From NCBI GenBank assembly GCA_023129165.1, contig JAGMCL010000060.1, positions 1-64,000 on the forward strand: DNA of 64,000 bases, in the 5' to 3' direction. Every line of letters starts with the position of its first letter. The stretch's first letter is position 1. Both the position numbers and the translations under genes were made by a program. The DNA comes from Caldifarciminota bacterium (GTDB taxonomy: Bacteria > Hydrothermota > UBA3073). Of the stretch, positions 12,427-33,258 are shown piece by piece. The notes below the pieces were generated by a model that saw only the letters and a program-made list of their open reading frames with translations, was not told where the DNA came from and made no database searches.

Positions 12427-12514
12427 GGGGTCAGGCTGGAATCTGGCATTTCTAACCCCATCTTGCTTCTAATCGTTTCAAGTTCTCTCCTTTTCCAGAT
12501 TCCAGCCTGACCCC
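12427..12514. repeat. GGGGTCAGG hairpin element, family 3 (88 bp)
   Basis: 20-bp perfect terminal inverted repeat GGGGTCAGGCTGGAATCTGG/CCAGATTCCAGCCTGACCCC. Confidence 0.85.
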
Positions 12515-12529
12515 AGTTTTGCATGACTG

Positions 12530-13714
12530 TCAAAAAAGAGCAAGTCTATCCTTAATATATTTATTTATTTTACCCTTAATATCTCTCGGAATTCTTATTC
12601 CCTCAGGTAGACCTTCTTTATTTATATACTTCAATATAGATCTTACTATACTGTAGGTTTGGTTAAGTCCATAACCTGTTACCTTTGAAGAGTCACCCTT
12701 TGTATGTATGTAGAAGGAAGGTATACCCCCTGCTCTGTTTATGTTGATAGAAGGTATGCCGATTTTTCCAAAAGGAATTGAATCACTGCTGTATATATTC
12801 TTTTTTATCTTTGCATAAAGTTTCTCCCTTTTCAATATCCCTTTTACCCATTCCTTTAAAATTCTATCACCCGTAACTATTATATTGTTTGTTCCTATAT
12901 CATCTCCAGTCACATCGATGTTTATTACAAACTCTGCACTTATGTTCTTTTTATTATTTACATAGTTAAAACTTCCAAGAAGCCCAAACTCTTCTGCTCC
13001 AAACCAGATAAATTTAACATTTTTATCTAAATCTTTCAAGAGTGTAAGCAGTACTGCTGAACCACCCCCATTATCACTTACTCCCTTTGAATAAGCAACC
13101 GTATCATAATGGGCACATATGATAATGGCAGGATTTTCAGATTTTTTGACAATTATGTTTGCTGATTTTGATTTAATTATTTTACCTTCTCCTTGTATTC
13201 TCACCCCTTTTCCTGTATAGTTGAGAAGTTTTAACCCTATATTATATGATACTGATACTATTGGTATCTTAGCACTCTTTATTATACTCTGAACTATATT
13301 CCCTGTCATTTCCTCTCTTTCAGGAGCATTTACAATTATAATTCCCCTGATTCTCTTTCTTAACATCTTTTTGTATTCCTTTGGAGTGATACGGTAGTAG
13401 AGCATCAGAATCTTCCCTTTAGGATTTTCAACTACTGAGTGATGCTCAATGTACTGCAGTTCACCCTCTATGTCAAAGCTTTCAAATCCTCCAAATGGTC
13501 TTGCATTAAACTTCTTACTACCAACTTTTATTTCTCCATTTAAGGGTATGAATGAAAATATGTCAAAGTATTGAATCTCTGGAGTGAACCCATAAGATTT
13601 TACCACCTTTACAATATAGTCTCTTGCTCTCCTTTCGCCATCTGTTCCAGCAATCCTCTCAAAACTTATATTATAAAGATGGTTCTTCAGTTTATTTATG
13701 ATTTCGTTATCCAT
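12530..13714 (-). CDS. M28 family zinc aminopeptidase-like peptidase
   Basis: ICAHYDTV, GVSDNGGGSA, FGAEEFGLLGS metal/catalytic motifs; start moved to the codon after an RBS. Confidence 0.88.
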   Translation of the reverse strand: MDNEIINKLKNHLYNISFERIAGTDGERRARDYIVKVVKSYGFTPEIQYFDIFSFIPLNGEIKVGSKKFNARPFGGFESFDIEGELQYIEHHSVVENPKGKILMLYYRITPKEYKKMLRKRIRGIIIVNAPEREEMTGNIVQSIIKSAKIPIVSVSYNIGLKLLNYTGKGVRIQGEGKIIKSKSANIIVKKSENPAIIICAHYDTVAYSKGVSDNGGGSAVLLTLLKDLDKNVKFIWFGAEEFGLLGSFNYVNNKKNISAEFVINIDVTGDDIGTNNIIVTGDRILKEWVKGILKREKLYAKIKKNIYSSDSIPFGKIGIPSININRAGGIPSFYIHTKGDSSKVTGYGLNQTYSIVRSILKYINKEGLPEGIRIPRDIKGKINKYIKDRLALF

Positions 13715-13763
13715 ATATTCTCCAGAAATATGTTGGTGCATTGCAATCTCACTCTACTAGCTA

Positions 13764-13873
13764 TCATTGCGAGTCCGTCGTCCGTCAAGAAGTACGACGG
13801 ATTGACGGACGTGGCAATCTCATTCCAGCCCTCTATCATTGCGAGCGAATGGAGTGAGCGTGGCAATCTCATT
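13764..13873. repeat. Two adjacent ATTGCGAG...GGCAATCTCATT modular palindromic repeats
   Basis: cattgcgagTCCGTCGTCCGTCAAGAAGTACGACGGATTGACGGACgtggcaatctcatt and cattgcgagCGAATGGAGTGAGCGtggcaatctcatt. Confidence 0.85.
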
Positions 13874-13914
13874 CTTTTTAACAGGGACTTGCCTGCCTGC
13901 CGGTAGGCAGGTAA

Positions 13915-13978
13915 GAGACTTGTAAGAGAATAAAAAATATAAAGAAATTTTTATCTCTTAAATTCTATTATTTGTCTG
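13915..13978. repeat. 64-bp AT-rich dispersed repeat, copy 1
   Basis: gagacttgYaagagaataaaaaatataaagaaatttttatctcttaaattctattatttgtctg; copy 2 at 32039-32102 with one mismatch. Confidence 0.85.
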
Positions 13979-14006
13979 TTCTACCTACCGGTAGGCATGG
14001 TTTGCT

Positions 14007-15737
14007 TTACATTTTCATCTTTATCAACTTTTTAGTTTCAGTTTGTTCGCCAGCATTAAACTTAAGGAAATATATACCACATGGAACTGTCTTTCCCAAA
14101 TTGTTTCTTCCATACCATACTATTTTATGATAGCCTGGTTTTTGGGGCTCGTTAATTAAACTTCTCACTAACTGTCCAAAAATATTATATATCTTCAATT
14201 CAGCATTACATTCGTATGGAAGAAAATAGCGAATCGTTGTTTCAGGATTGAAAGGATTGGGGTAATTATGAGATACTGATGGGATTTCTAATATTGAAGA
14301 AACCTTATTGTTAACTATACCCGTTGGTTCAACTGTAATAGTGTCTGTTTTTGTTGAAGAACCCGAACTATTTTTAACAGTTAAACTTACTATATAAGTT
14401 CCACAACTATCATAAGTCCACTCAGGATTTTGTACTGTAGTGTCAATTGTACCATCATTATTAAAGTCCCATTCCCACATTATCGGATTATGTAATGATC
14501 GATCTCTAAAACGAACTGTCAAAGAATCTCCGCCAAGGATGTAGGTAAAGTTGGCTACAATGGATATTGTATCAATAACATCAAAAGCCCGTTGAAGTTC
14601 GGAAAATGCATACCCAGCCATTTCAGCTTCAAATATTAACATTTCACTTTCGGATGGATTGTCTTCAATAAAAGAATCAGTAGAATCGAAAATTATTTCC
14701 CCTACTGGATATATTTGATCCCATAGACCGCTCCCGTCTTCATTCCGGAGCTTATAAGAGTCTATATATCTTTCATTTGTATAGTCGAAAAGACATTGTT
14801 TAATTTGGTAAGTCACATCAAAAAGGCTATCTGTATCATCAGGAGGATTTCCAACAGACCAGTAAGGTACGGCAATTGACCCTGCAGTTTGCCCGAGCAT
14901 TGTCCACATGGTAGTTAACCTTACCAGTTCGCTGGGTTCAACTCCCTGAATAACTGTTGCTGAAACTGATATGTGTCTGCAGATGCTATATCTGGTATTT
15001 ATATAACCATATGGTCTATCAATGATCCACTGATGAGGGTATGGAACATCAACTGGTTCACTATCTGAGTACGAAAAGTCCCGCATATGGTCCTGGAGAA
15101 TGCTTTGGTAATTCAGGTTACTATCAGCATAGAATTCTCCGATAAGGTTCATAGATCGAATATAACGCTTCTTGCTTTCACTCTCAGGTATACTATCTAT
15201 ATCTGTACCACAAAGGAAAAAGTCTGTTCGCACAATAAAACTATCTGCATCACACCTTCCATAAAGACTATCCCCTATTTCAAACATTGCTGCACCACCT
15301 ATTCTATCAATTACACCGAAAATTCCATGAATGTCATGATCGGGTAAATATAAGCTGTTGACTAAAGCAACAAAATCACCTATAGTGTCGCATATACCAA
15401 GTGCTTCAAACATTAATGACCCGTTCCCATGTCTTACTGGAATGGAATCCGTAACATTTACATTCACAATTGCAAATCCTTTCTCGTTCATACCCATCCA
15501 GGTAAGTCCATTTCCATAGTTTACATCCCAGACATATATAAAATTATAAATTCCTCCAGTGTCATAGCTTATTTTATTATTTACATAAGTAGTGCAATCT
15601 CGTGTTTTCCAAAGCAACGGGTGTCCATCTGTCGCTTCACCCGAGGCAACTCCAATTGTACAACCTTCTGCGTTTTGATACCCAACTGTCAAAAAAAGAT
15701 TAATAATTAACAAATGTAAAATTAGATATTTTTTCAT
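14007..15737 (-). CDS. Secreted Ntn-hydrolase (C45/acyl-transferase-like) with PKD domain and sorting domain
   Basis: GCTIGVASGEATDGHPLLWKTRDC after the signal peptide; PKD MWEWDFNNDGTIDTTVQNPEWTYDSCGTYIVSLTVKN; NPFNPETTIRYFLP...GIYFLKFNAGEQTETKKLIKMK; start moved out of the repeat-derived ATGs. Confidence 0.78.
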   Translation of the reverse strand: MKKYLILHLLIINLFLTVGYQNAEGCTIGVASGEATDGHPLLWKTRDCTTYVNNKISYDTGGIYNFIYVWDVNYGNGLTWMGMNEKGFAIVNVNVTDSIPVRHGNGSLMFEALGICDTIGDFVALVNSLYLPDHDIHGIFGVIDRIGGAAMFEIGDSLYGRCDADSFIVRTDFFLCGTDIDSIPESESKKRYIRSMNLIGEFYADSNLNYQSILQDHMRDFSYSDSEPVDVPYPHQWIIDRPYGYINTRYSICRHISVSATVIQGVEPSELVRLTTMWTMLGQTAGSIAVPYWSVGNPPDDTDSLFDVTYQIKQCLFDYTNERYIDSYKLRNEDGSGLWDQIYPVGEIIFDSTDSFIEDNPSESEMLIFEAEMAGYAFSELQRAFDVIDTISIVANFTYILGGDSLTVRFRDRSLHNPIMWEWDFNNDGTIDTTVQNPEWTYDSCGTYIVSLTVKNSSGSSTKTDTITVEPTGIVNNKVSSILEIPSVSHNYPNPFNPETTIRYFLPYECNAELKIYNIFGQLVRSLINEPQKPGYHKIVWYGRNNLGKTVPCGIYFLKFNAGEQTETKKLIKMKM

Positions 15738-15761
15738 GAGGATCATGGGGTCAGGGATCAT

Positions 15762-16023
15762 GGGGTCAGGTCTTTAGTTTTAAGTTTTCAAGTAACCTTA
15801 TTAACTATTCTCTTAAGGCGTTGGGTTTTTACTATATGAATTTCAAAATATTTAACAATAATTGGAATATTGATTTAACTCGAGTTAAAGAATTTCGCTA
15901 TAGTCTGAGAGGCAACGTGGTATACCCATCCAGTATATTACTTATTAACACTCTCATTATAGTATCAATATAATATATCTTTTATAAAAAGTCAAGTAAA
16001 TTTAAAACTAAAGACCTGACCCC
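15762..16023. mobile_element. MITE-like GGGGTCAGG element, family 1 copy A (262 bp)
   Basis: 22-bp TIR GGGGTCAGGTCTTTAGTTTTAA/TTAAAACTAAAGACCTGACCCC; same length as copy B with about 10 mismatches. Confidence 0.85.
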
Positions 16024-16291
16024 AATTTCGCAATTTAACATCTATTGAATATGTTGAAGCAAAGCGTATATCCGTTCCCATCAAGTTACAGAGACACCTA
16101 ATTGAAAGGTATAGATAGAAATAGTGAAATTGGTGTACTTATTTAATGACTAAAGATAATTTAGTCATTCATTAAATATAATCGAGCTCGTATACGCTAA
16201 AACTAACTCCCCTTAAATAGCGTAACTATTTCTTACAAGGTATTATTATCAACTCCTTATAAAAGGACTGTCCTTACCTCGTCATATGATA

Positions 16292-18259
16292 CTATCGTAT
16301 TGCAACCATCTTCTTAGTAGTCACTATATTCTCAGTCTGAAGTTTACAGAAATAAATTCCGCCAGCAATTTCATACCCTTTATCATCCCTGGCATCCCAG
16401 GTGATTTGATGGTAGCCAGCATCATATATATCCTGGGCTAAGGTCCTTACTAATTTACCTGTGACATCGTAAACTGAAATATTTACAAAACTCTTAGCCA
16501 TTAAGTAATACTGAATTATAGTTTCGAATTTAAAAGGATTGGGATTGTTCTGCAATAAAGGAGATGGATCAACCCCCGAAATATCTTCACCAGTTGTTTG
16601 CGAGCCACCACCAGCTTCATGCTCCCAGATATAAATGTCAGATACTATCGCATTCTCCCCTTGTACTCGTTTTATGTTCAGATGAATTTCATTATCGAGA
16701 TACATATTTCTTGGTATCCAGCGGCAAATGAGAATTGGAGTTTCTGGAATTTCAATATGACCATGAATTTGGATTCCATCAATATTAAGAGTTTGAATTC
16801 GTTCCTGTGTGGTATTAGGTGGTTCATAATATAGGATGCCCATTTTATATTGCTTATCAGGATTTAATCCTGTGATACAATAGACCAAGCTATCTGGATG
16901 ATAATCAACTGTCTTATCCGGTGTTTCTCCCCATTCATAATATCCTTCTCTTTGTACTAAGTACAGTGATGGTTCTGACTTCCCCGTGGCAAAAATGAAA
17001 TTGGGTACTATAACATAAATTTCTTCTGAGTAATCACTCTCATTCTCATCCCAATCTAAGGCTGTAATCTTATAACTGTATCTTCCACCTGGCTCGACAT
17101 CGTGATCGTCATATTGACTTACTGTAACAATTCCACTATTGATTTTAACTCCGTTTCTGAAGACATTATAACCATCAAGGTCGATCTCAATGTTATTGTC
17201 CCAGGTTAAATGAACGAAGACTCCTCCGTTGATACCGAATACATAGTCGAACCCGGTAGGAGCTAAAGGAGTTTTCTCAAGGAAGATCTTATGTCCTATA
17301 TCACCTGGATCCGAATAATTTGTAAGTGGGTAACATCTTGGGTCTGCTGGGGGAATGGGTACCCACATTGTATCTATGCTATCATATTTATAGACATATT
17401 TGTATGCTTCCCATACTGATGCTCTGCCATTATTATCACTATCGTAACCCCCTAAAATATCTATAGGCTCACCACCATCAGGCTTGACTCCAGAAAATGC
17501 ATTCATAACATGGAAAACGAATTCATCATGATGATATGTATGTTCTTCAATTATCTCATTCTCTGACCCTTCTACTACGTGAGTGCCCCTTCGAATAAGT
17601 ACATCGTCGCACGGATAAGACTTACCGTACTTAGGACCTACTGACAATGAGCAGGCAGTAACTACTACAGTGCTATCATTTTCTAAATCGTCTATAAATC
17701 CACCACTCTGACATTGTTCCATAATAATAACACGATAGGCATGTGGTATATCACTGATCCAATCAGCTAATTCCCAATCTATGAGTTCTCCATCTTCTAA
17801 CTTAAGCCTTGCATGCTGAGGATCTACTTCATTATTGCCATGTCCATTAGTCCATATGTAAAGGAAATCCTGACTCGTCATTGTAGATTCCAGTAAAGCA
17901 AACACATATTGAAGATTGTCACGAGTAGCGGGATAATCAACAAACCCTTCTGGTCTCTTATATCTCACCCAATAATCCCACTCGTCAAATTCCCAACTCC
18001 AATTTGTACCGTCTGCCCAGAGCACATATACATCATCATTGTTCCAACCTCGTTTTTCAACCAATATCTCGTGCATTATAAAGGGATCGTTCCAATATTC
18101 GTCACGTATTCTTTTCCCTTTAAGCTCTTTTCCCACCTCAGGAGTAACTCCCGAGATCAATACACCATACTCTTTTCCAAAAATAATACCTTGCAGAGAC
18201 ATCAAAACCAGTAGGGACATGCCTCCTGTCAGCAACCAACGAAACATTTCTTTCTTCAT
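16292..18259 (-). CDS. Secreted C13/caspase-like cysteine peptidase with sorting domain
   Basis: Signal peptide; YGVLISGVTPE, TNGHGN (His) and VIIMEQCQSGGF (Cys); NPFKFETIIQYYLM...GIYFCKLQTENIVTTKKMVAIR. Confidence 0.82.
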   Translation of the reverse strand: MKKEMFRWLLTGGMSLLVLMSLQGIIFGKEYGVLISGVTPEVGKELKGKRIRDEYWNDPFIMHEILVEKRGWNNDDVYVLWADGTNWSWEFDEWDYWVRYKRPEGFVDYPATRDNLQYVFALLESTMTSQDFLYIWTNGHGNNEVDPQHARLKLEDGELIDWELADWISDIPHAYRVIIMEQCQSGGFIDDLENDSTVVVTACSLSVGPKYGKSYPCDDVLIRRGTHVVEGSENEIIEEHTYHHDEFVFHVMNAFSGVKPDGGEPIDILGGYDSDNNGRASVWEAYKYVYKYDSIDTMWVPIPPADPRCYPLTNYSDPGDIGHKIFLEKTPLAPTGFDYVFGINGGVFVHLTWDNNIEIDLDGYNVFRNGVKINSGIVTVSQYDDHDVEPGGRYSYKITALDWDENESDYSEEIYVIVPNFIFATGKSEPSLYLVQREGYYEWGETPDKTVDYHPDSLVYCITGLNPDKQYKMGILYYEPPNTTQERIQTLNIDGIQIHGHIEIPETPILICRWIPRNMYLDNEIHLNIKRVQGENAIVSDIYIWEHEAGGGSQTTGEDISGVDPSPLLQNNPNPFKFETIIQYYLMAKSFVNISVYDVTGKLVRTLAQDIYDAGYHQITWDARDDKGYEIAGGIYFCKLQTENIVTTKKMVAIR

Positions 18260-18336
18260 TTCAAATCACCTCCTTTTAAAAATTTTCATACCAAGAGCCT
18301 AGCAACAAAACACATTGGTTTAACCACCTCCTTTCC

Positions 18337-19803
18337 TTAATGGGGATACTTATGTGTCAAAATGATTTTCTTCGTATCATTGAAATCTGCTGTCCTCATT
18401 ATATAAAAATATATTCCTCCTGATACCTTTTTACCATGCTCATCTCTTCCGTACCAGACAGTCATATGGTGACCAGGATGTTTTATATCATCGACCAATG
18501 TCCTAATTAGTCTCCCATTTATACTATATATTTTAAGACTCACATGAGAAATGACAGGGAGTTGGTAGTAAATGGTTGTCGAGTGCGAAAAGGGATTCGG
18601 TTGGTTTTGTAAAAGTCTAATTGTAGAGAATGTGTACACATCTTGCTCCTCTACTGAGGTTTGAGAATGATATGTATAGTAAATTTCGTCCATAGGGTAT
18701 CCTTCACTCCATACTACATGAATGTTATCATTTGGATCAAGTGTTATGTCAGTATAACTTGATACATTGTCTGGTGTGTTAGAGATATTGACTTTTTTAG
18801 AGATAACATCCCCAATTATGCAACTAAAATATATATCTCTTTGACTCGAACCTGCCCGACCTTCTCCCCAAAAAAGATAAATACGATTATAGGTATCAAT
18901 TGCTATACATTGACCACCAACGGAAGTCATTGAACTGTGTGAAATATTAATAGAATTAGACCAAAATGAACCATTATAAAAACTGTAGTAAATCTCCTGA
19001 TCTTGAGGTGCTAATACCTCGGTCCAGGCGACATGAGGATAGCCCAAAGTATCAGCTGCTATTGATACATCACAACCATCTTCAGTATCAGGGATTTTAA
19101 CTGGTTCCGACCATGAAAATCCATCAAACTTGCTATAAAAAATACCGAATCCCTCTATAGCAGGCCTGTCTCTCCATACAACATGAATACAATCTTCTAA
19201 ATCTATAGCCATAGCAGGATTACCCGAGGGCTCTGGATTATGAGATATGTTTATTGTATCAGACCAAAATGCTCTATCATAATATCTATAAAAGATCTCA
19301 CCATAACCAGGAGATGCACCCTCCTGCCATACTATATGAACTATATTTCTTGAATCAATTGCTATGTTCGCATGTTGAGAAATCCTGTCTGATGAATTTG
19401 ATAGATTTACTTCCGGTGTCCAGGAACAATTTACCCATTTGCTGTAATAAATGTCTACACTTCCTGCCCAATCATCCCATACTACATGAGGATTATTAAA
19501 GATATCACAGGCAGCATCAGATATAGAAAGCCAATCAGTTGAATCTCCCGAGACAAGGATAGGATCAGACCATGTTGTACCGTCGTCACTATAGGAGGAG
19601 TATATATTATTTCTATGCCATTCAGTCTGATAGTCATCACTCCAAGCAACATAAATACGATTATATTTATTGACAGCGATCGCAGGATATCTTGAGCGAC
19701 CATCGGGTGTGTTGGAGATATTAATCGGCGTTGTCCAGCCGTAAAGTACAGCTGGTAACAAACCAACGCACAAAACTAAGCAATACTTACAAAACCTGTT
19801 CAT
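18337..19803 (-). CDS. Secreted beta-propeller (sialidase/BNR-like) protein with sorting domain
   Basis: Repeated HVVW/IHVVW-D blades; NPFSHSTTIYYQLP...GIYFYIMRTADFNDTKKIIL. Confidence 0.75.
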   Translation of the reverse strand: MNRFCKYCLVLCVGLLPAVLYGWTTPINISNTPDGRSRYPAIAVNKYNRIYVAWSDDYQTEWHRNNIYSSYSDDGTTWSDPILVSGDSTDWLSISDAACDIFNNPHVVWDDWAGSVDIYYSKWVNCSWTPEVNLSNSSDRISQHANIAIDSRNIVHIVWQEGASPGYGEIFYRYYDRAFWSDTINISHNPEPSGNPAMAIDLEDCIHVVWRDRPAIEGFGIFYSKFDGFSWSEPVKIPDTEDGCDVSIAADTLGYPHVAWTEVLAPQDQEIYYSFYNGSFWSNSINISHSSMTSVGGQCIAIDTYNRIYLFWGEGRAGSSQRDIYFSCIIGDVISKKVNISNTPDNVSSYTDITLDPNDNIHVVWSEGYPMDEIYYTYHSQTSVEEQDVYTFSTIRLLQNQPNPFSHSTTIYYQLPVISHVSLKIYSINGRLIRTLVDDIKHPGHHMTVWYGRDEHGKKVSGGIYFYIMRTADFNDTKKIILTHKYPH

Positions 19804-19931
19804 GGCTCATTTCAGGTAGATTAGACTTAAATAGTTATCTCTTTTCCCTCAATTACATTATAGCACCAAAAAGATGAAAAATCAAGAAAAATCTTGCATG
19901 AGTGTTTGAATTTTTATCAGTGGGGGATCAT

Positions 19932-20193
19932 GGGGTCAGGTCTTTAGTTTTAAGTTTTCAAGTAACCTTATTAACTATTCTCTTAAGGCGTTGGGTTTTT
20001 ACTATATGAATTTCAAAATACTTAACAATAATTGGTATATTGATTTAACCCGAGTTAAACATTTTCGCTATAATCTGAGAGATAACGTGGTATACCCATC
20101 CAGTATATTACTTATTAACACTCTCATTATAGTATCAATATAATATATTTTTTAGAAAAAGTCAAGTAAATTTAAAACTAAAGACCTGACCCC
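19932..20193. mobile_element. MITE-like GGGGTCAGG element, family 1 copy B (262 bp)
   Basis: Same TIRs and identical length to 15762-16023. Confidence 0.85.
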
Positions 20194-20251
20194 AATTTCG
20201 CAATTTTGCCACGGACAATATGAGGGTGTAGGAACTCGAATTTTTAATAAA

Positions 20252-21358
20252 CTATCTCACCTTTAACAGCTTCTTGGTTGCAGTATATTCTCCAGCATCA
20301 AACTTAAGAAAATATACCCCTGATGGAAGTAATGAATTATCCCATAAAACCCTATATTCACCAGCATCCATCACATTGTCAATAATCGTCTGTATTAGTC
20401 TTCCGCTCACACCATATATACCAAGACTTACTTCTGTCTTCTTTGAGAGCGTAAACCTAATATTCGCATCTGAGGTAAGCGGGTTGGGATATACCTCGTA
20501 TAGTGATATCATAAATCCAGCTTCGGCATCTTCTATACCAGTTGATGGAACATACTTGACTGTGAAGTAGTCATAGTCCCCTCCGATCTTAGAAGCTCCT
20601 GTGACTATGATGTTGTCTAAACTATCCACAGCCACTGCGTAGGCATTATCCCGGGCTCCATTATCGATTGTGTCAGCCCACAGGATGACACCTGATGGAT
20701 CATACTTGACCGTGAAGTAGTCATAGTACGCTCCGATATCAGAAACTCCTGTGACTATGATGTTGTCCGAACCATCCACAGCCACACCATAGGCATCATC
20801 GCAGGCTCCATTGTCGATTGTGTCAGCCCACAGGATGACACCTGATGGATCATACTTGACCGTGAAGTAGTCATAGTACGCTCCGATCTCCGAACATCCT
20901 ATGACTATTATGTTGTCTGAACCATCCACCGCCACACCAAGGGCCCAATCCCAGGGTCCATTGTCGATTGTGTCAGCCCACAGGATGACACCTGATGGAT
21001 TATACTTGACCGTGAAGTAGTCATGGTCCCCTCCGATTTCGGAAGATCCTGTGACTATGATGTTGTCTAAACCATCCACGACCACACCACGAGGATAATC
21101 ATCGGGTCCATTGTCAGTTGTGTCAGCCCACAGGATGACACCTGATGGATCATACTTGACCGTGAAGTAGTCATGGTCCCCTCCAGCAAAGGAATATCCT
21201 GTGACTATGATGTTGTCTAAACCATCCACAGCCACACCATAGGCAACATCAATGAATCCATTGTCGATTGTGTCAGCCCACGAGATGTAATACTGAGCCT
21301 CAACAACCGAAGATACTACAAACCCCAAAACCGCAATAGATAAAAAGAAATACTTCAT
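20252..21358 (-). CDS. Secreted SBBP-type beta-propeller protein with sorting domain
   Basis: Five 50-aa repeats (YDPSGVILWADTIDNG...GVAVDGSDNIIVTG); GVYFLKFDAGEYTATKKLLKVR. Confidence 0.82.
   Translation of the reverse strand: MKYFFLSIAVLGFVVSSVVEAQYYISWADTIDNGFIDVAYGVAVDGLDNIIVTGYSFAGGDHDYFTVKYDPSGVILWADTTDNGPDDYPRGVVVDGLDNIIVTGSSEIGGDHDYFTVKYNPSGVILWADTIDNGPWDWALGVAVDGSDNIIVIGCSEIGAYYDYFTVKYDPSGVILWADTIDNGACDDAYGVAVDGSDNIIVTGVSDIGAYYDYFTVKYDPSGVILWADTIDNGARDNAYAVAVDSLDNIIVTGASKIGGDYDYFTVKYVPSTGIEDAEAGFMISLYEVYPNPLTSDANIRFTLSKKTEVSLGIYGVSGRLIQTIIDNVMDAGEYRVLWDNSLLPSGVYFLKFDAGEYTATKKLLKVR
20551..21300. repeat. Five tandem 150-bp repeats encoding 50-aa SBBP units
   Basis: catacttgaccgtgaagtagtcat recurs at 20551, 20701, 20851, 21001 and 21151. 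Confidence 0.9.
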
Positions 21359-21535
21359 ATCTTCCACCTCTTTTAATAAGAGTTAATAATATGTCAATAT
21401 AATTGCTAATGATACATGCATGAAGCTTATCCTTGAGGTTCGATTCTGCTGGTGCTGTGGACGCAATACAACATCTATTGAATTTAAGATAGTTAAAGAG
21501 ATTGTGAGGGTGTAGGAACTCGAATTTTTAATAAA

Positions 21536-22849
21536 CTATCTTACCTTTAACAGTTTCTTGGTTGTTGTATATTCCCCGGTATCGAACTTAAGAAAATACA
21601 CGCCAGCTGGAACAGCAATGTCTGAATCATCTCTCCCATCCCAGACTACTTGATGAAATCCTGAATGCTTGAATGTATCTAAAAGTACTTTTATTTCTTG
21701 ACCTAATACATTATAAATCCTGAGAGTGACCTTGCTATCTTTCTTTAAAGTATACTTAATACTTGTCAAAATATTAAAAGGATTGGGATAGATTTGTAAG
21801 ATCATATTGTTTAATAATTCCTGTAAACCTACATGGGGAGAATAGCATAATACAACACCTCCACTTCCAGCTACCCACCCATGGGATGTATCTGTAAAAC
21901 AAACCTGGTGTAAAGTAGAATTAACAGGACTACTTTCAGTTGTCCAGTGCTCGCCGCCATCTCTTGTTCTTAAAATTACACCACCTTCACCAACTATCCA
22001 ACCATTCAGAGAGTCAACAAAATCAATTCCATTAAGAGTGTTGTTTATACCACTTAATTGGGTTACCCAGGTAGTGCCGGCATCTTCAGTATGTAAAATC
22101 GTTCCAGATTCACCTACAATCCAACCCTTAAGAGAATCAACAAAGAAAATATTTTTTATTGAAATAGAAAAACTATCTATTAAATTCAAATTTTCTGGTC
22201 CTGTTTGTGTTGAAAAGAGATAACATTGCGAGTCACCCCTAAAGGCGGTTGATAAATACCAACCACATAGTGAATCAATAAAGTGAATTTTTTCCCCACA
22301 CATAGCTTCTGGAATCCACCATGATATTTCACAATTACCTGTAACTATGTTATATATTGATGAGCTTACTTCACAAAAATAATAAAAACATTGTAAGTAA
22401 TAACCGCAGGTGGTATTTGGGATTGATATGTCTTTAATCCAGTTATATAAAGGTGGATTATTACTTTTTAACTCTATCCATGTACTACCAGCATCTATTG
22501 TATGTAATAATAAGACATAAAAATCAAATCCATACTCACTCTTGCTACCACCTGCCCAGCCTTCTGAATTATTTCTGAAACCAATAGTATATAGTCTTCT
22601 TTGTTCGCGACAATACTGTCTTTCCCAGCTATATCCACCATCACTCGTATGTATGATTTTGCCATATTTTTCTACCGCCCAACCATTCAGGCTATCTATA
22701 AAAAATATGTCTAAAATCGCTTGTCCAATACCAGTTTCCTGAATGAACCACCCTCTTGTATTATCAGTAACCTTTTTATTATTATCAATTTTCTCAGTTG
22801 GCTGAGGAATATTTATCAATGATAGGAAGATAAATATAAAAATGTGCAC
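21536..22849 (-). CDS. YCF48/BNR-like beta-propeller protein with sorting domain
   Basis: Repeated FVDSLNGWIVGEGGVILRTRDGGEHW units; NPFNILTSIKYTLK...GVYFLKFDTGEYTTTKKLLKVR. Confidence 0.85.
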   Translation of the reverse strand: MHIFIFIFLSLINIPQPTEKIDNNKKVTDNTRGWFIQETGIGQAILDIFFIDSLNGWAVEKYGKIIHTSDGGYSWERQYCREQRRLYTIGFRNNSEGWAGGSKSEYGFDFYVLLLHTIDAGSTWIELKSNNPPLYNWIKDISIPNTTCGYYLQCFYYFCEVSSSIYNIVTGNCEISWWIPEAMCGEKIHFIDSLCGWYLSTAFRGDSQCYLFSTQTGPENLNLIDSFSISIKNIFFVDSLKGWIVGESGTILHTEDAGTTWVTQLSGINNTLNGIDFVDSLNGWIVGEGGVILRTRDGGEHWTTESSPVNSTLHQVCFTDTSHGWVAGSGGVVLCYSPHVGLQELLNNMILQIYPNPFNILTSIKYTLKKDSKVTLRIYNVLGQEIKVLLDTFKHSGFHQVVWDGRDDSDIAVPAGVYFLKFDTGEYTTTKKLLKVR

Positions 22850-24897: not shown

Positions 24898-24928
24898 CTT
24901 TTAATCCTCCTGAAAACTTATAAGGATA

Positions 24929-26938
24929 TTATTTTATCACCAAAAACTTCCTTGTTCCTGAAAACTTACCAGCGTCCATTCTCAGGAAATAGACACCTGA
25001 TGTTAGTTCATCTGTGTTTATTTTTACGCTATGCTCACCCACATTTAATTTTTTATCAACCAATTTAATTAATAGGGAGCCTTTAATATCGTAGATATAT
25101 ATTTTTACATACTCAGGTTTTTCAATTGAGAATTTGTATCTTGTATCATTTGACAACGGGTTGGGTTTAACCTTAGGGAAGTTACATATCTCTATTTCCG
25201 AAGTTCTATCAACGCCAACGCAAGTCCAATTATGGAAATTTTCTATTAATATCTCCTGTGCGATTGTATCTGTTATAGCATGTAAAGGGAAGTAAAGAAA
25301 TAGTAACTTGTAGCCACTTGGTGATTCGTATCTATATCCTAAGATTGTGCAATCGGTTGAATAGAATAGTGGCTTACACTCTGAATCAAGTTCTGTGAAT
25401 GTACCAACCCATGTCGGGTATAATGGTGTGCAGTCTACAGTAATCTCATCTGGCATAGCGCAAGTAACATAATCTGTTACATCAATAAACACATCAAACG
25501 GCGATTCAGTAATATAATCATCTATGCCACCGTATGCTTTAAAATAATCTCTGAGTGGGTGTGGAGATTCAGGTGCTTCCCATTCTCCATATCCGAGATT
25601 AAAACCCGAACCTATAAGATCTTGAGATGATATTAATAGATTCCCACCTGAATTCACCAGACATTCAAACAACTGTGTATTAGTGAAATCAGCCAGACCT
25701 TCACCTCCGGGTGAAAGCCAACAGATTTCTCTGAGACCTGGTCCACTTATGTAATAATCTATAACAAAATTATCAGCAGAGCCATCAAGGTTCTCATTCC
25801 ATACATTGTAAAAATAAGTGGGGAAAGCATTGTGTACACCTGTTCCAAACCCAAAATATTCGTCCTCTTCAATATATACAAGAGAACGAAGCTGGGTGAC
25901 CCTCTTTACCATGTAGCAGTAGTAATGTGTTTTATATGTGGGTCTTAGTGCACTTCTATACTTAAGCTTTACCCAATAAGTTAATTTTACCTCCGGTCTC
26001 TGACCAGGAATAATAGCATGCCACCAGGCATCTTCGGAATATGGATCAGGGTTATAAACAGAATCCTGTATAAGAGATACTCTAAAAGTATTACATTCAT
26101 TTATAGAATAATATAGAAATGCCGAATCTGGATAAAATCCTACACCAGCCGAATCTTCATTGTAATCCCAGGAATAGATATGAACAGTTCTATCGTGAGT
26201 ATCGTATGTACCCTTTAATTTCTCAACAGAGACCCCAGTATAGTTCTGACCATAGAATTTAACAAGTGCTCGTATCCAGAAGAGATCAGATGAAGAATAC
26301 CATCCTGGACCATTAGTTTCGGGTCCTGCACCACTTTGCCGCCAGCATATTGCATGATAAGGAGGAAGAACATTTAAATCTACCTTCGTTGAATAGCAGG
26401 TGTCTTCAATTGTATACCCAGCCCAGAATACATTTTGGTCTATATTTGGCTGTCCTGGAATAACGAGAGTATCCCAGTGTAAACCTACTGTGAAGGGTAT
26501 CTCCATAGCAGCAGGCCTAAAGTATAAATTACCTATTGGGCTTGGACCAGTTATAGATGTAGAATCACGATACTCCCCATAAGATTCAGGTGTTACACTA
26601 TCGGGAACATCAGCAACAATACCATAATATAGGTCGGGTGTATTCCCACACCTTTTATATCTACAGAAATGAACTTCAATAAGAGAGCAGGGGAAAGGTG
26701 GAACAAATAATACCCCGATAGTATCACCAGGAAGGATATCAGTTAGGTAATGACTACTTTCTCCACAATCATACTGTATTAGCGAATGTGCTGAAAGCAT
26801 ATCTACAGACATCACTTTACTCGGTTCGCCATTTACAGATGGTAATAGATATACCTCTTGTGATTTTGCATAAATATTGCTTACTAAATTGCTACTTACA
26901 AGCAACATTACAAAAAATATTTCGATGAGCTTTTTCAT
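24929..26938 (-). CDS. Secreted protein with sorting domain (paralog 2)
   Basis: Tandem paralog of 22882-24897; GVYFLRMDAGKFSGTRKFLVIK. Confidence 0.75.
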   Translation of the reverse strand: MKKLIEIFFVMLLVSSNLVSNIYAKSQEVYLLPSVNGEPSKVMSVDMLSAHSLIQYDCGESSHYLTDILPGDTIGVLFVPPFPCSLIEVHFCRYKRCGNTPDLYYGIVADVPDSVTPESYGEYRDSTSITGPSPIGNLYFRPAAMEIPFTVGLHWDTLVIPGQPNIDQNVFWAGYTIEDTCYSTKVDLNVLPPYHAICWRQSGAGPETNGPGWYSSSDLFWIRALVKFYGQNYTGVSVEKLKGTYDTHDRTVHIYSWDYNEDSAGVGFYPDSAFLYYSINECNTFRVSLIQDSVYNPDPYSEDAWWHAIIPGQRPEVKLTYWVKLKYRSALRPTYKTHYYCYMVKRVTQLRSLVYIEEDEYFGFGTGVHNAFPTYFYNVWNENLDGSADNFVIDYYISGPGLREICWLSPGGEGLADFTNTQLFECLVNSGGNLLISSQDLIGSGFNLGYGEWEAPESPHPLRDYFKAYGGIDDYITESPFDVFIDVTDYVTCAMPDEITVDCTPLYPTWVGTFTELDSECKPLFYSTDCTILGYRYESPSGYKLLFLYFPLHAITDTIAQEILIENFHNWTCVGVDRTSEIEICNFPKVKPNPLSNDTRYKFSIEKPEYVKIYIYDIKGSLLIKLVDKKLNVGEHSVKINTDELTSGVYFLRMDAGKFSGTRKFLVIK

Positions 26939-27222
26939 ATTTTATAAATTTACACTAAGTTTATCTATTTAGAAGTTTGTTAACTAAGGATGAACAACAG
27001 TGAAGGAATAAGAGTTGGAGAACCATAATCCAATTATCTATATGCAGTTTATAATTCTTAGTTCATTGAAGCCACTCTTATTTCTGGCTGGAATGCGATG
27101 TGGAGTATTACAACTATCGGAGCAATCTCGAGGTATTATTCTATCACTACAATTCAGATGTATGTATATTTATTATAATTCAAAATGTGCTAAAAGTCAA
27201 GAAAAAAGATAAAAAACTATCT

Positions 27223-27396
27223 GGGGTCAGGCTAAAAGATAAGAGATAACTGCTTGGCATAAAGGGAAAGTTATAGTAGTTTTGTAATATGCTTAGAAAA
27301 CTGAGGATAGAATATGAAGGAGTTTTTTTGTTATGTGATATCTCGTGGTAAAAGGAGTGAGTTTATATTCTATCTCTTATCTCTTAGCCTGACCCC
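27223..27396. mobile_element. MITE-like GGGGTCAGG element, family 2 copy 1 (174 bp)
   Basis: GGGGTCAGGCTAAaAGATAAGAGATA...TATCTCTTATCTCTTAGCCTGACCCC; same length as the copy at 33085-33258. Confidence 0.87.
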
Positions 27397-27666
27397 CATT
27401 TCCCCTCCCAATTTAACATCCATTTAGTTTGTTGAAGCAAAGCGTAAATCCGTTCACGTCATATTCGGATCCCGCAGAAGGCGGGACATTTGAAGGAAGG
27501 TAGAGAAAGAGATTGTGAGGGTGTAGTATTGCTGAACTTCTTTATCTAAAGGTTTCAGGTAACCCTATCGGTGTATATGAAGTGCAAAGCATTTTTCATT
27601 TTACATATGCACCGTGTTATATGAAGTTCGGCAACATTCCTGTCTTTTTCTGTATTTATCTCCCTG

Positions 27667-28443
27667 TCATCTCATTACTATTACTTTCTCTGTTCTACTG
27701 AATTTACCAGATTCCAGTCTCACAAAGTAATGACCAGAGGTTACCTTCACTCCAGTATGGTTTGAGCCATCCCATCTAATAGTATAATTACCAGGCGTTA
27801 CCTCTTTGTTCACGAGTTCCTTTATCATCTCTCCAGCAATGTTGTATGTTCGCAAGCAAACTCTTCCCTTTCTTTTAATGCAATAGTCGATGACCACCCC
27901 ATAAGAAGCAGTTATAGTTGGCTTAATCTTGAGAATGCAGAACTCAGAGGTAGAGGGTGATATTTCAATACCTTGCGGAGAAGAGAGCTTGTAAATCTGC
28001 CAGTTATATGTCGCATCATACTTATCATACACAATCCAGTTTCCGTCAGGTGACCACTGGGGATTGCAATGGTGATAACCATCGTTGGTCAGGGCTATCT
28101 CTGTTCCACCTGCTGATGGAACCTTGTAAATCTGGTAGTGGCCTGTCGCATCATTCTTATAATACACAATCCAGCTTCCGTCAGGTGACCACTGGGGATT
28201 GTAATGGTTATAACCATCGTTGGTCAGAGCTATCTCTGTTCCACCTGATGATGGAACCTTGTAAATCTGGTCGTAGCCTGTCGCATCCAACTTCTGATAC
28301 ACAATCCAGTTTCCGTCAGGTGACCACTGGGGACAGTAATGAGCCCAATCATCGCTGGTCAGGGCTATTTCCTGTGCCCACAATGTGGACAGTAGAACCA
28401 TACAAGCGAGAATGGGGTAAAAAATCCTCCTATAGTTAATCAT
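27667..28443 (-). CDS. TolB/PD40-type beta-propeller secreted protein with sorting domain
   Basis: Three 45-aa units PQWSPDGNWIVYxKxDATGxxQIYKVPSxGGTEIALTNDG; GHYFVRLESGKFSRTEKVIVMR. Confidence 0.82.
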   Translation of the reverse strand: MINYRRIFYPILACMVLLSTLWAQEIALTSDDWAHYCPQWSPDGNWIVYQKLDATGYDQIYKVPSSGGTEIALTNDGYNHYNPQWSPDGSWIVYYKNDATGHYQIYKVPSAGGTEIALTNDGYHHCNPQWSPDGNWIVYDKYDATYNWQIYKLSSPQGIEISPSTSEFCILKIKPTITASYGVVIDYCIKRKGRVCLRTYNIAGEMIKELVNKEVTPGNYTIRWDGSNHTGVKVTSGHYFVRLESGKFSRTEKVIVMR

Positions 28444-28987
28444 AACACACCTCCTTTAAAAAGTTGCAGAGAACTGACACCATTTATGAACTTTATTTTT
28501 TCTGAATACTATTTACAATCTTCTGTAAGGAAATGAGCATTTTTATCTTTTCTTCAAAAGGTATCTTTGCGAGTTCTTTATGAAATAGTTCCTTTTTTTT
28601 CAAACAATTTCTTTCGTGTTATTATTCTATTATCTTCCATAACAATCTCTCTCTCATTTCGTAACCCAGATCTCTCCATCTGTTACTATTATAGCACAAA
28701 CTTAAGAAAAATCAAGAAAAATCTTGATTGAGTGTTTGATTCTTTTGTCAGAGTTAAGGCGTTGAGAAGATTAAAAGTGTTATTTGAGGAAGTGTTTTTC
28801 GGGAATCTGTCTGGCTTTCGATATCTTGAACAGCATGGACAAATTGCGAATCATCTCATGTATCAGTAAGGTTCGATTATGCTGGTGTTATAGACGCAAT
28901 TTAACATCAATTGAATTTGATGTAGCGTCAGCTATATTTGCTTTATTAGGCGGAATTATAAAATGGGTTACTTGTGGAATGGTATCT

Positions 28988-29629
28988 CTATGCTAAATAT
29001 AGCTCAAGATTTTCCATTAAAACAAAATCTTTTCTAATTTCTATTGATTCACCTGACTCTACTCCAGTAAGTTTTGCTATAATGGTTCCTTTTCCATCTA
29101 AAGTAAATAGTTTTGGGATCAAGTGGAAACGAAAAACTTGATTTGGTTTAAGAACATATATATTGGTATGATCCCAAATCATTTTAGTGTCATTTTGTGG
29201 AAAAAATTTTGTTATCTCAACTAATCTCTTATGGTCGTTGCGATCTTTGTAGAGTATCTTTATATCTACATCTTTCGCAACCTCAGTACCTACATAGTGC
29301 ATTTCAACTGCATAGGATGGTGGATTTATGTAAGGATATATCAATAGCGAATGTTCATTGATTGCTGATATTTCCGAATGTTCATTGATTGCTGATATTT
29401 CTTTGTTTAGCTTTCTATAGAGGAAAAAATTCGCCAATAGGAATGATAGAAGAAATATTGTTCCACCAACCTGCCTAATTAGCATTACATCTCTGATTAA
29501 TTTCTCCGCTATATTTGGACAAAAGAAAAGGATTATCCCCAAAATGCTAAAGGATGTAAAAAGCCATTGTAAACCGCTTGCGAAAACGTTTATAAAATAT
29601 GACCAAAAATCAGAAAGGAAATCTTTCAT
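28988..29629 (-). CDS. Hypothetical membrane protein, two N-terminal TM segments
   Basis: Hydrophobic segments FSILGIILFFC and IFLLSFLLANFFLY; sits downstream of attC-like site 1. Confidence 0.55.
   Translation of the reverse strand: MKDFLSDFWSYFINVFASGLQWLFTSFSILGIILFFCPNIAEKLIRDVMLIRQVGGTIFLLSFLLANFFLYRKLNKEISAINEHSEISAINEHSLLIYPYINPPSYAVEMHYVGTEVAKDVDIKILYKDRNDHKRLVEITKFFPQNDTKMIWDHTNIYVLKPNQVFRFHLIPKLFTLDGKGTIIAKLTGVESGESIEIRKDFVLMENLELYLA
29348..29401. repeat. Perfect tandem duplication of 27 bp
   Basis: cgaatgttcattgattgctgatatttc x2, in frame, encoding EISAINEHS twice. Confidence 0.95.
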
Positions 29630-29686
29630 TGAATTTACCTTTTTAGAGTTGCGAGGTAATAACTACTCGGTTTCGGGATTTTTCCA

Positions 29687-29741
29687 CCTAACGTCTGAGC
29701 TAAATTGCGCTGAAAGTGTCAGGTTAAGCGATTTGTTATAT
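29687..29741 (-). mobile_element. Integron attC-like site 1
   Basis: Minus strand ATAACAAATCGCTTAACCTGACACTTTCAGCGCAATTTAGCTCAGACGTTAGGT; AAC...GTTAGGT (GTTRRRY) core and imperfect dyad. Confidence 0.65.
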
Positions 29742-30018
29742 TGTGAGGTGTTATAATAAGCAATCATTCCCGTAATCAAGGGGTAAATTATGACAGATAA
29801 AGATATGGTTCTAGTTGAGTAGCATGATACCACGTTTTTCTCCGTTACATACGACTAGGAAGCAATCCATGGACATAGGATGGCTTTTTTTCAGAAGTCT
29901 GGGCTATCTAATTGCAAGGGATAATGTTACTATAGCCATCGCTGCTGAACAGAATGACCAAAAGAAATACAGGGATATAACTCTGATTCCTAGTGGTTCA
30001 ATTATATCCATTAGTAAG

Positions 30019-30210
30019 CTAGTAGCCAGCCCTTCTATGGAGTTCGTCGTGCTCTTTTATTGTTAGCACTCTTAGGTTACGAGGATCGTTGTTATTTGTA
30101 TTACGATCTTTATGATGTATCTCCAAGTTGGTGATACGATGCACTCTGCCATCTTTGTCTGAACGACGCCTAATGATTGCCTCTTTCTGAGATGATGATA
30201 ATAGTGACAT
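30019..30210 (-). CDS. Small HNH endonuclease-domain protein
   Basis: LEIHHKDRNTNNNDPRNLRVLTIKEHDELH; RBS aggag upstream. Confidence 0.8.
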   Translation of the reverse strand: MSLLSSSQKEAIIRRRSDKDGRVHRITNLEIHHKDRNTNNNDPRNLRVLTIKEHDELHRRAGY

Positions 30211-30470
30211 TTCTAGTTACTCCTATTGTTATTATTCAGGCACTCGATTATAGCACTTAAATAGATAAATGCAATCCTTGTGCTTGTAAACAACTTCATA
30301 TTATTAGTTCACATTATAACATAGGTTTAGCTAATGATAAATTAAGAATTCGATCATACTTTTTCATTTTGTTGGACATTTTCCAAATTACAGTTTTGTG
30401 CCAAATAAATACCAGAAAAATAATTCCAAAACAAATATAATAAGGTGTTATAGCACCTCCTTTAGAATTT

Positions 30471-30541
30471 GCATAACGGAAAGCTCACCGACGCTATGGA
30501 GCGCCAGGGTAATAGCTGTCAGGTGTAGTGATTTGTTAGCT
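30471..30541 (-). mobile_element. Integron attC-like site 2
   Basis: Minus strand AGCTAACAAATCACTACACCTGACAG...GTCGGTGAGCTTTCCGTTATGC; begins 3 nt after the stop of 30544-31446; left half 19/22 identical to site 1. Confidence 0.7.
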
Positions 30542-30543
30542 AT

Positions 30544-31446
30544 TTATCTTTTAACAACAATTTGTTGAACACTTTGGATAAATGCTATACCGTTATGATT
30601 TTCTATTATTTTTATTGCATTAGTTGCTCCAAGAGTGTGAATACAAGCATGGTGGACTGAAAGCACCGCCTCTTGTAGTTTGGGATCATCTTCAAGTGGA
30701 ATAATGTTTAAGCCAATCTCCTTACATTTTTCTACTGATAAATGTCTAGCATGAGATTTAAGTAAAGCAAGATTGCCTAATTCTTCTATTATATTTTCTA
30801 TAAGGTTTTCTGCGTCTTTTTTTGTAGCAAGCATACCAGAAAGCAGCCATTCTTTAACCATTTCGTTTGACCAATCAATCGCTTTTTCGCATTCACCTAT
30901 GAGTGTTGGCGTATATTTTGCTATTATTGGTTGCCATACAGCGGCTTTTTTGGGGTCTGAGCAAATTTCTAAATACGCACGCTTGAATTCTTCAACTACA
31001 CCATGAGCAGGAATTCCTCTGAATTGAGGATCTATTGGTCCAAGACTAGATTGTTTACCCATGATTATCTCTTTGCAAGCACAAGCAATCATTGTTCCAG
31101 CTGACATTGCTAGTTGAGGTATAATAGCACGAATATTTGTCCCGAACATCGAATGAAGATAATCTACTATAGATTCCATTGCCGAGGTTTCCCCGCCAGG
31201 TGTATGTAAAAGTAAATCCAATCCCTTACTACGATTTAACCCATGAATAACTGTCATAAAGCCATTTTTGTCCGCATCATTTACGTGTATATTAGGGGCA
31301 TCTGGTTTTTGCAACCACCCTGAATAATAAATTATTACATTTCTCATAGTTACCTTCTGCAGTTTCTTTAGATATTTCCTGCGTATAATATCATGGGTGC
31401 TTCCCGCTCTACTTATTTCATGTAATATATTATGCCAATTAGGCAT
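30544..31446 (-). CDS. SDH-type ClpP/crotonase-fold serine protease-like protein
   Basis: LDLLLHTPGGETSAMESIVDYL, PQLAMSAGTMIACACKEIIMGKQSSLGPIDPQ (nucleophile MSAG). Confidence 0.82.
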   Translation of the reverse strand: MPNWHNILHEISRAGSTHDIIRRKYLKKLQKVTMRNVIIYYSGWLQKPDAPNIHVNDADKNGFMTVIHGLNRSKGLDLLLHTPGGETSAMESIVDYLHSMFGTNIRAIIPQLAMSAGTMIACACKEIIMGKQSSLGPIDPQFRGIPAHGVVEEFKRAYLEICSDPKKAAVWQPIIAKYTPTLIGECEKAIDWSNEMVKEWLLSGMLATKKDAENLIENIIEELGNLALLKSHARHLSVEKCKEIGLNIIPLEDDPKLQEAVLSVHHACIHTLGATNAIKIIENHNGIAFIQSVQQIVVKR

Positions 31447-31615
31447 TTCCTCCTCCTTTTATAGCGTGAGTACTAATATCCAATCTAATAAATATTTGCT
31501 TTTTTTCTGTTGCTTCTAATTCTTTCTCTTCTAATTTTAAAAATTTTTCACGTTTTTTCTCTGTTCCCAAACCTATTTCTGTGAACATTTTTTTTAATTC
31601 TTTCTTTGATCGCAT
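31439..31615 (-). CDS. 58-aa charged small protein, translationally coupled to the SDH-type protease
   Basis: ATG after AGGAGGATAAATA; MRSKKELKKMFTEIGLGTEKKREKFLKLEEKELEATEKKQIFIRLDISTHAIKGGGNA; its stop overlaps the protease start (ATGCCTAA). Below the ORF-track length cutoff. Confidence 0.65.
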   Translation of the reverse strand: MRSKKELKKMFTEIGLGTEKKREKFLKLEEKELEATEKKQIFIRLDISTHAIKGGGNA

Positions 31616-31902
31616 TTATTTATCCTCCTAATTTCATTAATAAATTTTCATATAACATAGGTTTATTTGTGCTAATAAATTAACAATCATGGCTAATCTT
31701 AACTGTATAAATCCTCTCTTACTTATTCTTTTTACTTAATCATTCTCTTAATTTGTTGGTAATTACATCATACTGGAAAAACACCAACTTGTCAAGTTTT
31801 TTCTGTTGACTCTAACATCCTAAAGTTTGGTCCTCCTGCCAGATTGGTACTATCTGTGTAAGAAGGTATAAGTAAGCATGCTCTCGTATAAACGAAATTT
31901 CC

Positions 31903-31931
31903 TTGACAATTTATTTTAAATATGGTAGAAT
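31903..31931 (+). promoter_or_regulatory. Orphan candidate promoter TTGACA-N17-TAGAAT
   Basis: Direct motif match; no adjacent plus-strand ORF until 32608. Confidence 0.4.
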
Positions 31932-32038
31932 ACAACAACATCAAACATAATTACTATATTATATGACTTTTCAAAAGTCATTTTAACAGGGTAAGAGAGA
32001 TTCTTTTTTTATTTTTAATATTCAACAGGGACTTTAAC

Positions 32039-32102
32039 GAGACTTGCAAGAGAATAAAAAATATAAAGAAATTTTTATCTCTTAAATTCTATTATTTGTC
32101 TG
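32039..32102. repeat. 64-bp AT-rich dispersed repeat, copy 2
   Basis: One mismatch from 13915-13978. Confidence 0.85.
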
Positions 32103-32140
32103 CAATAGGCAGGTAAATCCCTGTATAACAAAAGTTTCTG

Positions 32141-32328
32141 TCATTGCGTGGCAATCTCATTATTAATTACCAATCCTTTATCGCTTTGGAGTACATTACC
32201 CTGGTAATGTAAAACAACAATACTATTCTAAAAACAAATTCACATAAAATGCGATTGCTTCACCTACAGTTCGCAATGACAAGTTGTTGTATGCGATTGC
32301 TTCGTCGTTAATACTCCTCGCAATGACA
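32141..32328. repeat. Cluster of three ATTGCGAG/GCGATTGCTTC modular repeats
   Basis: tcattgcgtggcaatctcat; gcgattgcttcacctacagttcgcaatgac; gcgattgcttcgtcgttaatactcctcgcaatgacat. Confidence 0.8.
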
Positions 32329-32436
32329 TGGAGAAAAGAGTTTAAATATCCTGCTGTGAAAGGTGGGAATATTATACAGTTATAATGAATATTAGGTAGT
32401 GTCAAAAATAATACGAAAGAATAAGAAAGCGAAAAT

Positions 32437-32495
32437 GTAGGGGTTTGATTTATCGAACCCACAAAAGAAACGGGTCGGATAAATCCGACCCCTAC
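32437..32495. repeat. 59-bp GTAGGGG-type palindromic repeat, copy 2
   Basis: Near-identical to 9229-9287. Confidence 0.9.
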
Positions 32496-32607
32496 AAGAA
32501 TCAGGGGGAGGCAAGTCAAAAATTGATAACTATATAAAAAACAGTGGATTAAGAGAAAATTCATAAAAGATTTTTGACAATACTTATTTATTCAACCAGG
32601 AGGAGAT

Positions 32608-33039
32608 ATGTCTGAAAAATTAGAAGTCCTGAAAAACGAGGTTTGGGGTTATTTCAAACCTATCCAGTTCATCTATTTAGCAACCTGTGAGGGAAATAAG
32701 CCAAGGGTTAGACCTGTAACTCTGGTATATTTCAATGATAAATTCTGGGTTGCAACTGGAATGAAAGCTGCAAAAACAAAACAGATAAAAGAGAATGAAA
32801 ACATCGAATTCTGTATTTTGTTGAAAAAAGGTGAAAACAGTGGATACATCAGGGGAGCCGGGATAGCTAATATCATCAAGGACAGAGAAACAAAGAAACT
32901 AGTGGCAAATAATATTTCCTTTTTTAAGGATTACTGGGAAGACTCAGATGACCCGAATTTTGCTCTACTGGAAATTGTTATTAAAGGGATTGAGTATCTA
33001 AAACCAGGAGAATTTTCTGCAGAAAGATTTTCAGTATAA
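32608..33039 (+). CDS. Pyridoxamine 5'-phosphate oxidase family (split-barrel flavin-binding) protein
   Basis: FIYLATCEGNKPRVRPVTLVYFNDKFWVATG...KTKQIKENENIEFCIL; strong RBS aggaggag. Confidence 0.85.
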   Translation: MSEKLEVLKNEVWGYFKPIQFIYLATCEGNKPRVRPVTLVYFNDKFWVATGMKAAKTKQIKENENIEFCILLKKGENSGYIRGAGIANIIKDRETKKLVANNISFFKDYWEDSDDPNFALLEIVIKGIEYLKPGEFSAERFSV

Positions 33040-33084
33040 AAGAGATATACCTACCCTACTTATAAGGAGCGACAGTTTGAAAAT

Positions 33085-33258
33085 GGGGTCAGGCTAAGAG
33101 ATAAGAGATAATTACTTGACATAAAGAGAAAGTTATGGTAGTTTTGTAATATGCTTAGAAAACTGAGGATAGAATATGAAGGAGTTTTTTTGTTATGTGA
33201 TATCTCGTGGTAAAAGGAGTGAGTTTATATTCTATCTCTTATCTCTTAGCCTGACCCC
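33085..33258. mobile_element. MITE-like GGGGTCAGG element, family 2 copy 2 (174 bp)
   Basis: 26-bp perfect TIR; about 6 mismatches to 27223-27396. Confidence 0.88.

Follow-up and report, generated by a model that had tools for sequence, protein, structure and literature searches.

Miniature elements sharing GGGGTCA ends in a Caldifarciminota genome as probable deletion derivatives of three different TIRYT transposase elements

Miniature elements of the window

The window, a 64,000-nt stretch of a Caldifarciminota bacterium draft genome, contains five short elements belonging to three families, all of which start with GGGGTCAGG and finish with CCTGACCCC (Table 1). As given in the initial annotation, they measure 262 bp in both family 1 copies (15762–16023 and 19932–20193), 174 bp in both family 2 copies (27223–27396 and 33085–33258), and 88 bp in the family 3 element, with 10 mismatches between the copies of family 1 and 6 between those of family 2. 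All five are intergenic and without coding capacity, and they carry perfect TIRs of 20–28 bp (22 to 28 bp with two mismatches allowed).

Table 1. Coordinates of the miniature elements in the window and of the Y1 transposase elements elsewhere in the genome.
Feature	Location	Strand	Description
Family 3 miniature element	12427..12514	-	88 bp; TIR GGGGTCAGG-CT-GGAATCT-GG(A/C)ATTT; transposase-upstream end is the right end (12514)
15-bp tandem duplication of element end	15741..15770	.	GATCATGGGGTCAGG twice, read from the sequence
Family 1 miniature element	15754..16031	-	262 bp from GGGG to GGGG; conserved 8-bp tails on the left (GGGATCAT) and right (AATTTCGC)
Family 1 miniature element, copy 2	19924..20201	-	Structure as in the 15754..16031 copy
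Family 2 miniature element	27223..27404	+	174 bp; an 8-bp tail, CATTTCCC, follows on the transposase-downstream side
Family 2 miniature element, copy 2	33085..33266	+	Matches C125 element; same site occupied in G143
C125 TIRYT element	L016 2232-3262		Intact gene of 306 aa; family 2 TIR
C97 TIRYT element	L046 2477-3330		Family 3 TIR; gene broken into 111 and 134 aa
C15 Y1 gene			331 aa; GGGGTYAAA ends

The outer limits proposed in the initial annotation were slightly short, given conserved bases continue outside them. In family 1, the edges of which were taken from an alignment of 11–12 copies with unrelated outer flanks, 8 more bases are conserved outside GGGG on both sides in copies at different sites (GCGAAATT and GGRATCAT). 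Family 2 shows 8 conserved nucleotides (GGGAAATG) outside GGGG on the transposase-downstream side and weak conservation upstream, and such conservation is near absent in family 3. A repeat comparison likewise took two of the elements (D2 and D4) to 283 and 180 nt. At the 27223 copy, the genome G143 (a member of the same genus as the source genome) is collinear until 1 nt before GGGG and then diverges, and at the family 2 copy L021 the departure from collinearity lies 9 nt before GGGG, at AGGGAAATC. We infer that this boundary asymmetry would fit a Y1 mechanism that cuts at different positions at the two ends.

One further GGGGTCAGG in the window, at position 15747, is unpaired because it is part of the 15-bp tandem duplication of a family 1 end. 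Arrays of this kind, comprising two to three partial repeats of a 7–8 nt tail followed by GGGGTCA, are seen there and at L017, L221, L222, L226, and L228. They occur on one side of the elements, with units that begin at the same base and stop at variable places, and may have arisen by repeated insertion into the end or by slippage there.

The window also holds repeats of other kinds. Adjoining the family 3 element, the region 12290–12410 comprises period-9 arrays of GACAGGAT(T/A)NACAGGAT in an inverted arrangement (12290, 12331, and 12410 minus), and similar strings are found at other loci of both genomes. A 64-bp repeat (13915–13978 and 32039–32102; 98% identical) is not a GGGGTCAGG element, and the region 20393–21292 consists of overlapping copies of a 150-bp-period repeat within a gene, the protein of which has beta-propeller repeats and a secretion tail.

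Distribution in the genome and phylum

The 9-mer GGGGTCAGG occurs 11 times on both strands of the window, where shuffles gave an expectation of 0.135. Across the draft genome, 3.03 Mb in size, it is found 93 times and its reversed control 11 times. Approximately 78 of these 93 words run on into the TIR of a recognisable family, and by the sequence after the 9-mer we distinguished at least five TIR families, namely TCTTTAGTTTTAARTTT (family 1), CTAAGAGATAAGAGATA (family 2), CTGGAATCTGGAATTT (family 3), CTCAACTATTT, and CTGAAAAATAGAAATAA. In the stretches of the genome analysed, a collection of paired ends of the kind suggested in the initial annotation returned 19 distinct exact-ended miniature pairs of ≤520 bp with matching inverted TIRs, against a chance expectation of ~0.3 (49 × 44 × 480 / 3.03 Mb, our own arithmetic); the motif is thus neither limited to the window copies nor present only as isolated words. 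Many ends are unpaired in the genome, with the partner lost or diverged. The word is similarly in excess over its reversed control elsewhere in the phylum (65 vs 11 in G143, 55 vs 9 in G144, and 61 vs 5 in G014); all counts come from draft MAGs, in which repeats lie at the ends of contigs. A literature search on the 9-mer returned unrelated papers only.

The similarity between copies had been taken as a sign of recent mobility. Recent mobility is not demonstrated, as the 15762 and 33085 copies lie at the same sites in the congener, where the locus L175 matches window positions 32593–34746 at 96%, straight through the 33085 element. Comparison of joined flanks between G000 and G143 yielded no clean empty site; most copies are shared, have one flank rearranged, or are replaced by a solo TIR (as in L045 vs G143 C57). 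Given several copies are common to G000 and G143, current activity is not demonstrated. An apparent nesting of family 2 in family 1 (L017) was rejected on account of a right junction that is not clean, ~70 bp of the host copy being missing. We did note that several family 2 copies (L019, L020, L021, L037, L042, and window 33085) lie just upstream of the promoter-like TTGACA...TATAAT of the next gene, the expression of which they may affect.

Parent transposase elements

An IS200/RAYT-type Y1 transposase encoded elsewhere and flanked by the same ends had been suggested, and such genes are indeed present. Among the 8 Y1_Tnp matches in the genome, two lie within exact GGGGTCAGG ends, one intact (C125) and one deleted (C97), and in both the gene is flanked by GGGGWSAS TIRs; C125 is the only intact exact-GGGGTCAGG TIRYT remaining in the assembly. 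Compared to the congener copy L079 (G143:C51), C97 is missing ~185 bp between 12-bp repeats, a deletion that takes the catalytic Tyr region. One scan of genome contigs yielded a single close relative, and the nearest named relative is a WOR-3 MAG (L047), with a transposase 97% identical.

The miniature elements align to the transposase elements. In family 2, the 27223 copy matches the C125 element over 147 bp at 80% and 33 bp at 100%, the 33085 copy over 147 bp at 82% and 33 bp at 100%, and the L042 copy at 92.5%, with copies of 445 and 467 bp representing deletion intermediates. The family 3 copy matches the two ends of L079 over 65 bp at 91% and 27 bp at 100%, and those of C97 in its own genome (L046) over 56 bp at 91% and 27 bp at 100%. 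For family 1, the parent match comes from a related genus only and covers one end only, because the contig cuts the other end of L082; here, the transposase-upstream half shows 74% identity over 119 bp to the 5′ end of the L082 TIRYT (G144:C69-like), including the TIR and gene-start remnants. Families 2 and 3 thus match a parent element at both ends, as a MITE would, and family 1 does so at one end. These alignments make it very probable that the three families are MITE-like internal-deletion derivatives of three different TIRtrons, one parent per family. The parents are different paralogues, ~50% identical to each other, which is why the interiors are unrelated, and the shared 9-mer represents a core motif, GGGGWSAS, that is common to TIRYTs as a class. 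One known system in this way accounts for three repeats that are unrelated except for their identical ends.

Two-part structure of the ends

We inspected ~107 loci encoding TIRYTs in the phylum, and at 82 of them could read a TIR that carries the core or a close variant of it. In 25 clustered GGGGTC-type TIRs, a set selected on G1–G4, T5, and C6 (which are accordingly fixed), A7 is found in 24 of 25 and is followed by 2–4 variable bases and then by two tandem 7-mers. The self-match of these clusters at a lag of 7 is 0.60, vs 0.31 when shuffled (z 9.8; statistics from one phylum). No other lag gives a comparable value (lag 8 follows, z 2.1), and neither does the DNA immediately internal to the TIRs. 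Seven GGGGAC-type TIRs instead show a period of 8 (z 6.3). The identity between units within a TIR is 0.62–0.66, vs 0.39–0.42 with units re-paired between TIRs (p ≤ 1e-4). Among ~80 TIRYTs of the phylum, the ends are therefore composed of a GGGGTCA core and two tandem 7-mers (8-mers in GGGGAC types). Among nine plasmid TIRYT-like proteins of other phyla, a core-type TIR was present in four (Legionella, Iodobacter, Sporomusa, and Rhodospirillum) and the variant AGGGACGG in Acetoanaerobium, while no TIR was found at the genes of the other four; the TIRYT-like protein search returned no phage matches.

The transposase and its C-terminal domain

The Y1 domain of the transposase was recognised with PF01797 (E 1.1e-16), and the residues H60, H62, and Y119 are invariant in 36 relatives. 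Pfam assigned Y1_Tnp together with Bac_DnaA_C, the latter 0.7 bits below the curated cut-off in the C125 protein and above it in C97; Bac_DnaA_C was matched in 21 of 36 members (E ≤ 0.1), and other HTH models in several more. A profile built from 36 TIRYTs encoded at these loci matches DnaA domain IV (3PVP, 8BTG, and 1J1V) as well as TnpA-REP (4ER8) in the PDB. The AlphaFold (AF2) model (mean pLDDT 87, pTM 0.69) aligns to 4ER8 with a TMt of 0.75, and its C-terminus to the DNA-binding domain of DnaA in complex with box DNA (3PVP) with an rmsd of 1.8 over 87 columns (TMt 0.75). By profile and fold, the C-terminus of the enzyme is a DnaA-domain-IV-like HTH.

Covariation between enzymes and ends points to this domain as the candidate reader of the 7-mers. 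In a partial Mantel analysis of 50 dereplicated enzymes, 7-mer distance was correlated with the C-terminal domain given Y1 (r 0.47, p 0.0005; reverse r −0.21), whereas for core positions 8–11 the correlation is higher with Y1 (0.37) than with the C-terminus (0.21). The HTH columns gave an r of 0.56, compared to a mean of 0.42 and a maximum of 0.50 for entropy-matched columns elsewhere in the protein (300 sets), and the correlation, when taken by sliding along the protein, climbs toward the C-terminus. When the comparison was confined to closest pairs (25, all disjoint), differences in the 7-mers were about equally correlated with those in the recognition helix (rho 0.60) and in Y1 (rho 0.67). 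Given these pairs fail to separate the domains, we hold recognition of the tandem 7-mers by the C-terminal HTH as our leading hypothesis and not as a result, and place its likelihood a little short of even. A candidate single-residue code (K288 with G14 and S284 with G14) was strong in raw Fisher tests, vanished in phylogenetically disjoint pairs, and was rejected.

Alternative explanations and proposed mechanism

The initial annotation had favoured a common enzyme, that is, one trans-acting TIRYT that recognises the 9-bp terminus only and moves all three families. The presence of GGGGTCAGG at all ends and the survival of C125 as the sole intact enzyme of this exact type are consistent with such an arrangement. 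However, the whole TIR of each family, together with its subterminal sequence, corresponds to that of a different TIRYT (C125 for family 2, C97 / G143:C51 for family 3, and the G144:C69-like gene for family 1), family-specific 7-mers included, and the parents are paralogues as distant as noted above, so we regard a shared enzyme as quite unlikely. We also consider it highly improbable for the elements to be MITEs of a DDE-type IS that share ends with RAYT genes by accident; although their long perfect TIRs and constant length do look like classical MITEs, these ends enclose a gene for a Y1 transposase whose HUH and Tyr are intact, the miniature copies align to the element of this Y1 gene, and the junctions inspected show no target-site duplication.

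The repeats might otherwise be kept for a host role, such as a transcription terminator, a stem-loop RNA, or a protein-binding site, and now be immobile, for which the intergenic position of all five elements and the presence of at least two of them in the congener would speak. No Rfam family matched the elements, and therefore no known RNA is involved. The many copies at unrelated sites, together with the series of progressively deleted forms of a transposase element, argue for past mobility, with which later co-option is compatible; a host role in place of mobility thus appears unlikely.

Returning to descent from three different TIRtrons, internal deletion of a transposase element would yield each miniature family with both ends kept, and, for that reason, its copies would presumably be movable in trans by the cognate transposase. 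By homology to TnpA-REP and IS608, the N-terminal Y1 domain would recognise and nick at the shared GGGGTCA core, and the HTH may read the two family-specific tandem 7-mers beside it, replacing the hairpin of IS200/IS605 and REP systems; such reading would assign each enzyme its own family. More generally, we tentatively propose that a large Y1 branch has swapped hairpin reading for a two-part end, in which an invariant GGGGTCA core is read by Y1 and the adjacent 7-/8-mers by a captured DnaA-domain-IV-like HTH, a proposal we rate as nearly an even prospect. A change in the HTH would then re-address the enzyme to a new end family, and, if this is true, sequence-unrelated element families with one common core can therefore coexist in one genome.

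Comparison with known systems

TIRtrons, as described by Di Nocera et al. 2013 (PMC3733652), comprise a Y1 gene (TIRYT) between GGGGWSAS TIRs, with TIR families that are dispersed and sometimes number several per genome. The Y1 gene, GGGGWSAS TIRs, and dispersed TIR families are all found here too. What differs is the genome, which is of the WOR-3 type, the presence of full miniature elements that appear to be internal-deletion derivatives, and the resolution of the TIRs into a core and tandem 7-mers. The main texts of PMC3733652 and PMC6006769 make no mention of heptamers or direct repeats in such ends.

The TnpA-REP proteins of subclass 2.1 (PMC6006769) are long Y1 proteins that terminate in Bac_DnaA_C or another HTH, lack REP hairpins in their vicinity, and have GGGG[AT][CG]A[CG] ends; in that 2018 paper, the core was noted to be unlike a DnaA box, and the role of the HTH was left open. 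The enzymes described here share the combination of Y1 and Bac_DnaA_C/HTH (such as HTH_23/28 in the class definition) as well as the core ends, and differ in that tandem 7-mers adjoin the core as a candidate HTH target. These 7-mers offer a concrete candidate site for the DnaA-like C-terminus, and make the open question of PMC6006769 on DNA-end recognition testable.

As in REP/REPIN-RAYT systems (GTAG REPs), a Y1 transposase is accompanied by dispersed non-autonomous inverted pairs; in contrast to these, the ends carry GGGGTCAGG and direct 7-mers, and the GTAG/GTGG tetranucleotide and hairpin are absent from them. L024 (G000:C50:1500-6000) encodes, at 1876–2352 plus flanks, a separate RAYT of typical form (158 aa; NF047646 above cut-off), near which lie several copies of GTAG-type REP hairpins (ATGTAGGAGGGGTTTCCTAACCCC), and so GTAG-REP and TIRYT systems occur in one genome. 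The HUH/Y1 fold and catalytic residues are held in common with IS200/IS605 elements (IS608 and ISDra2), which have subterminal hairpins, no TIR, and no HTH extension, unlike the perfect TIRs seen here. This kind of element has already been published; the elements of the window are additional members of it, and the two-part end is our addition.
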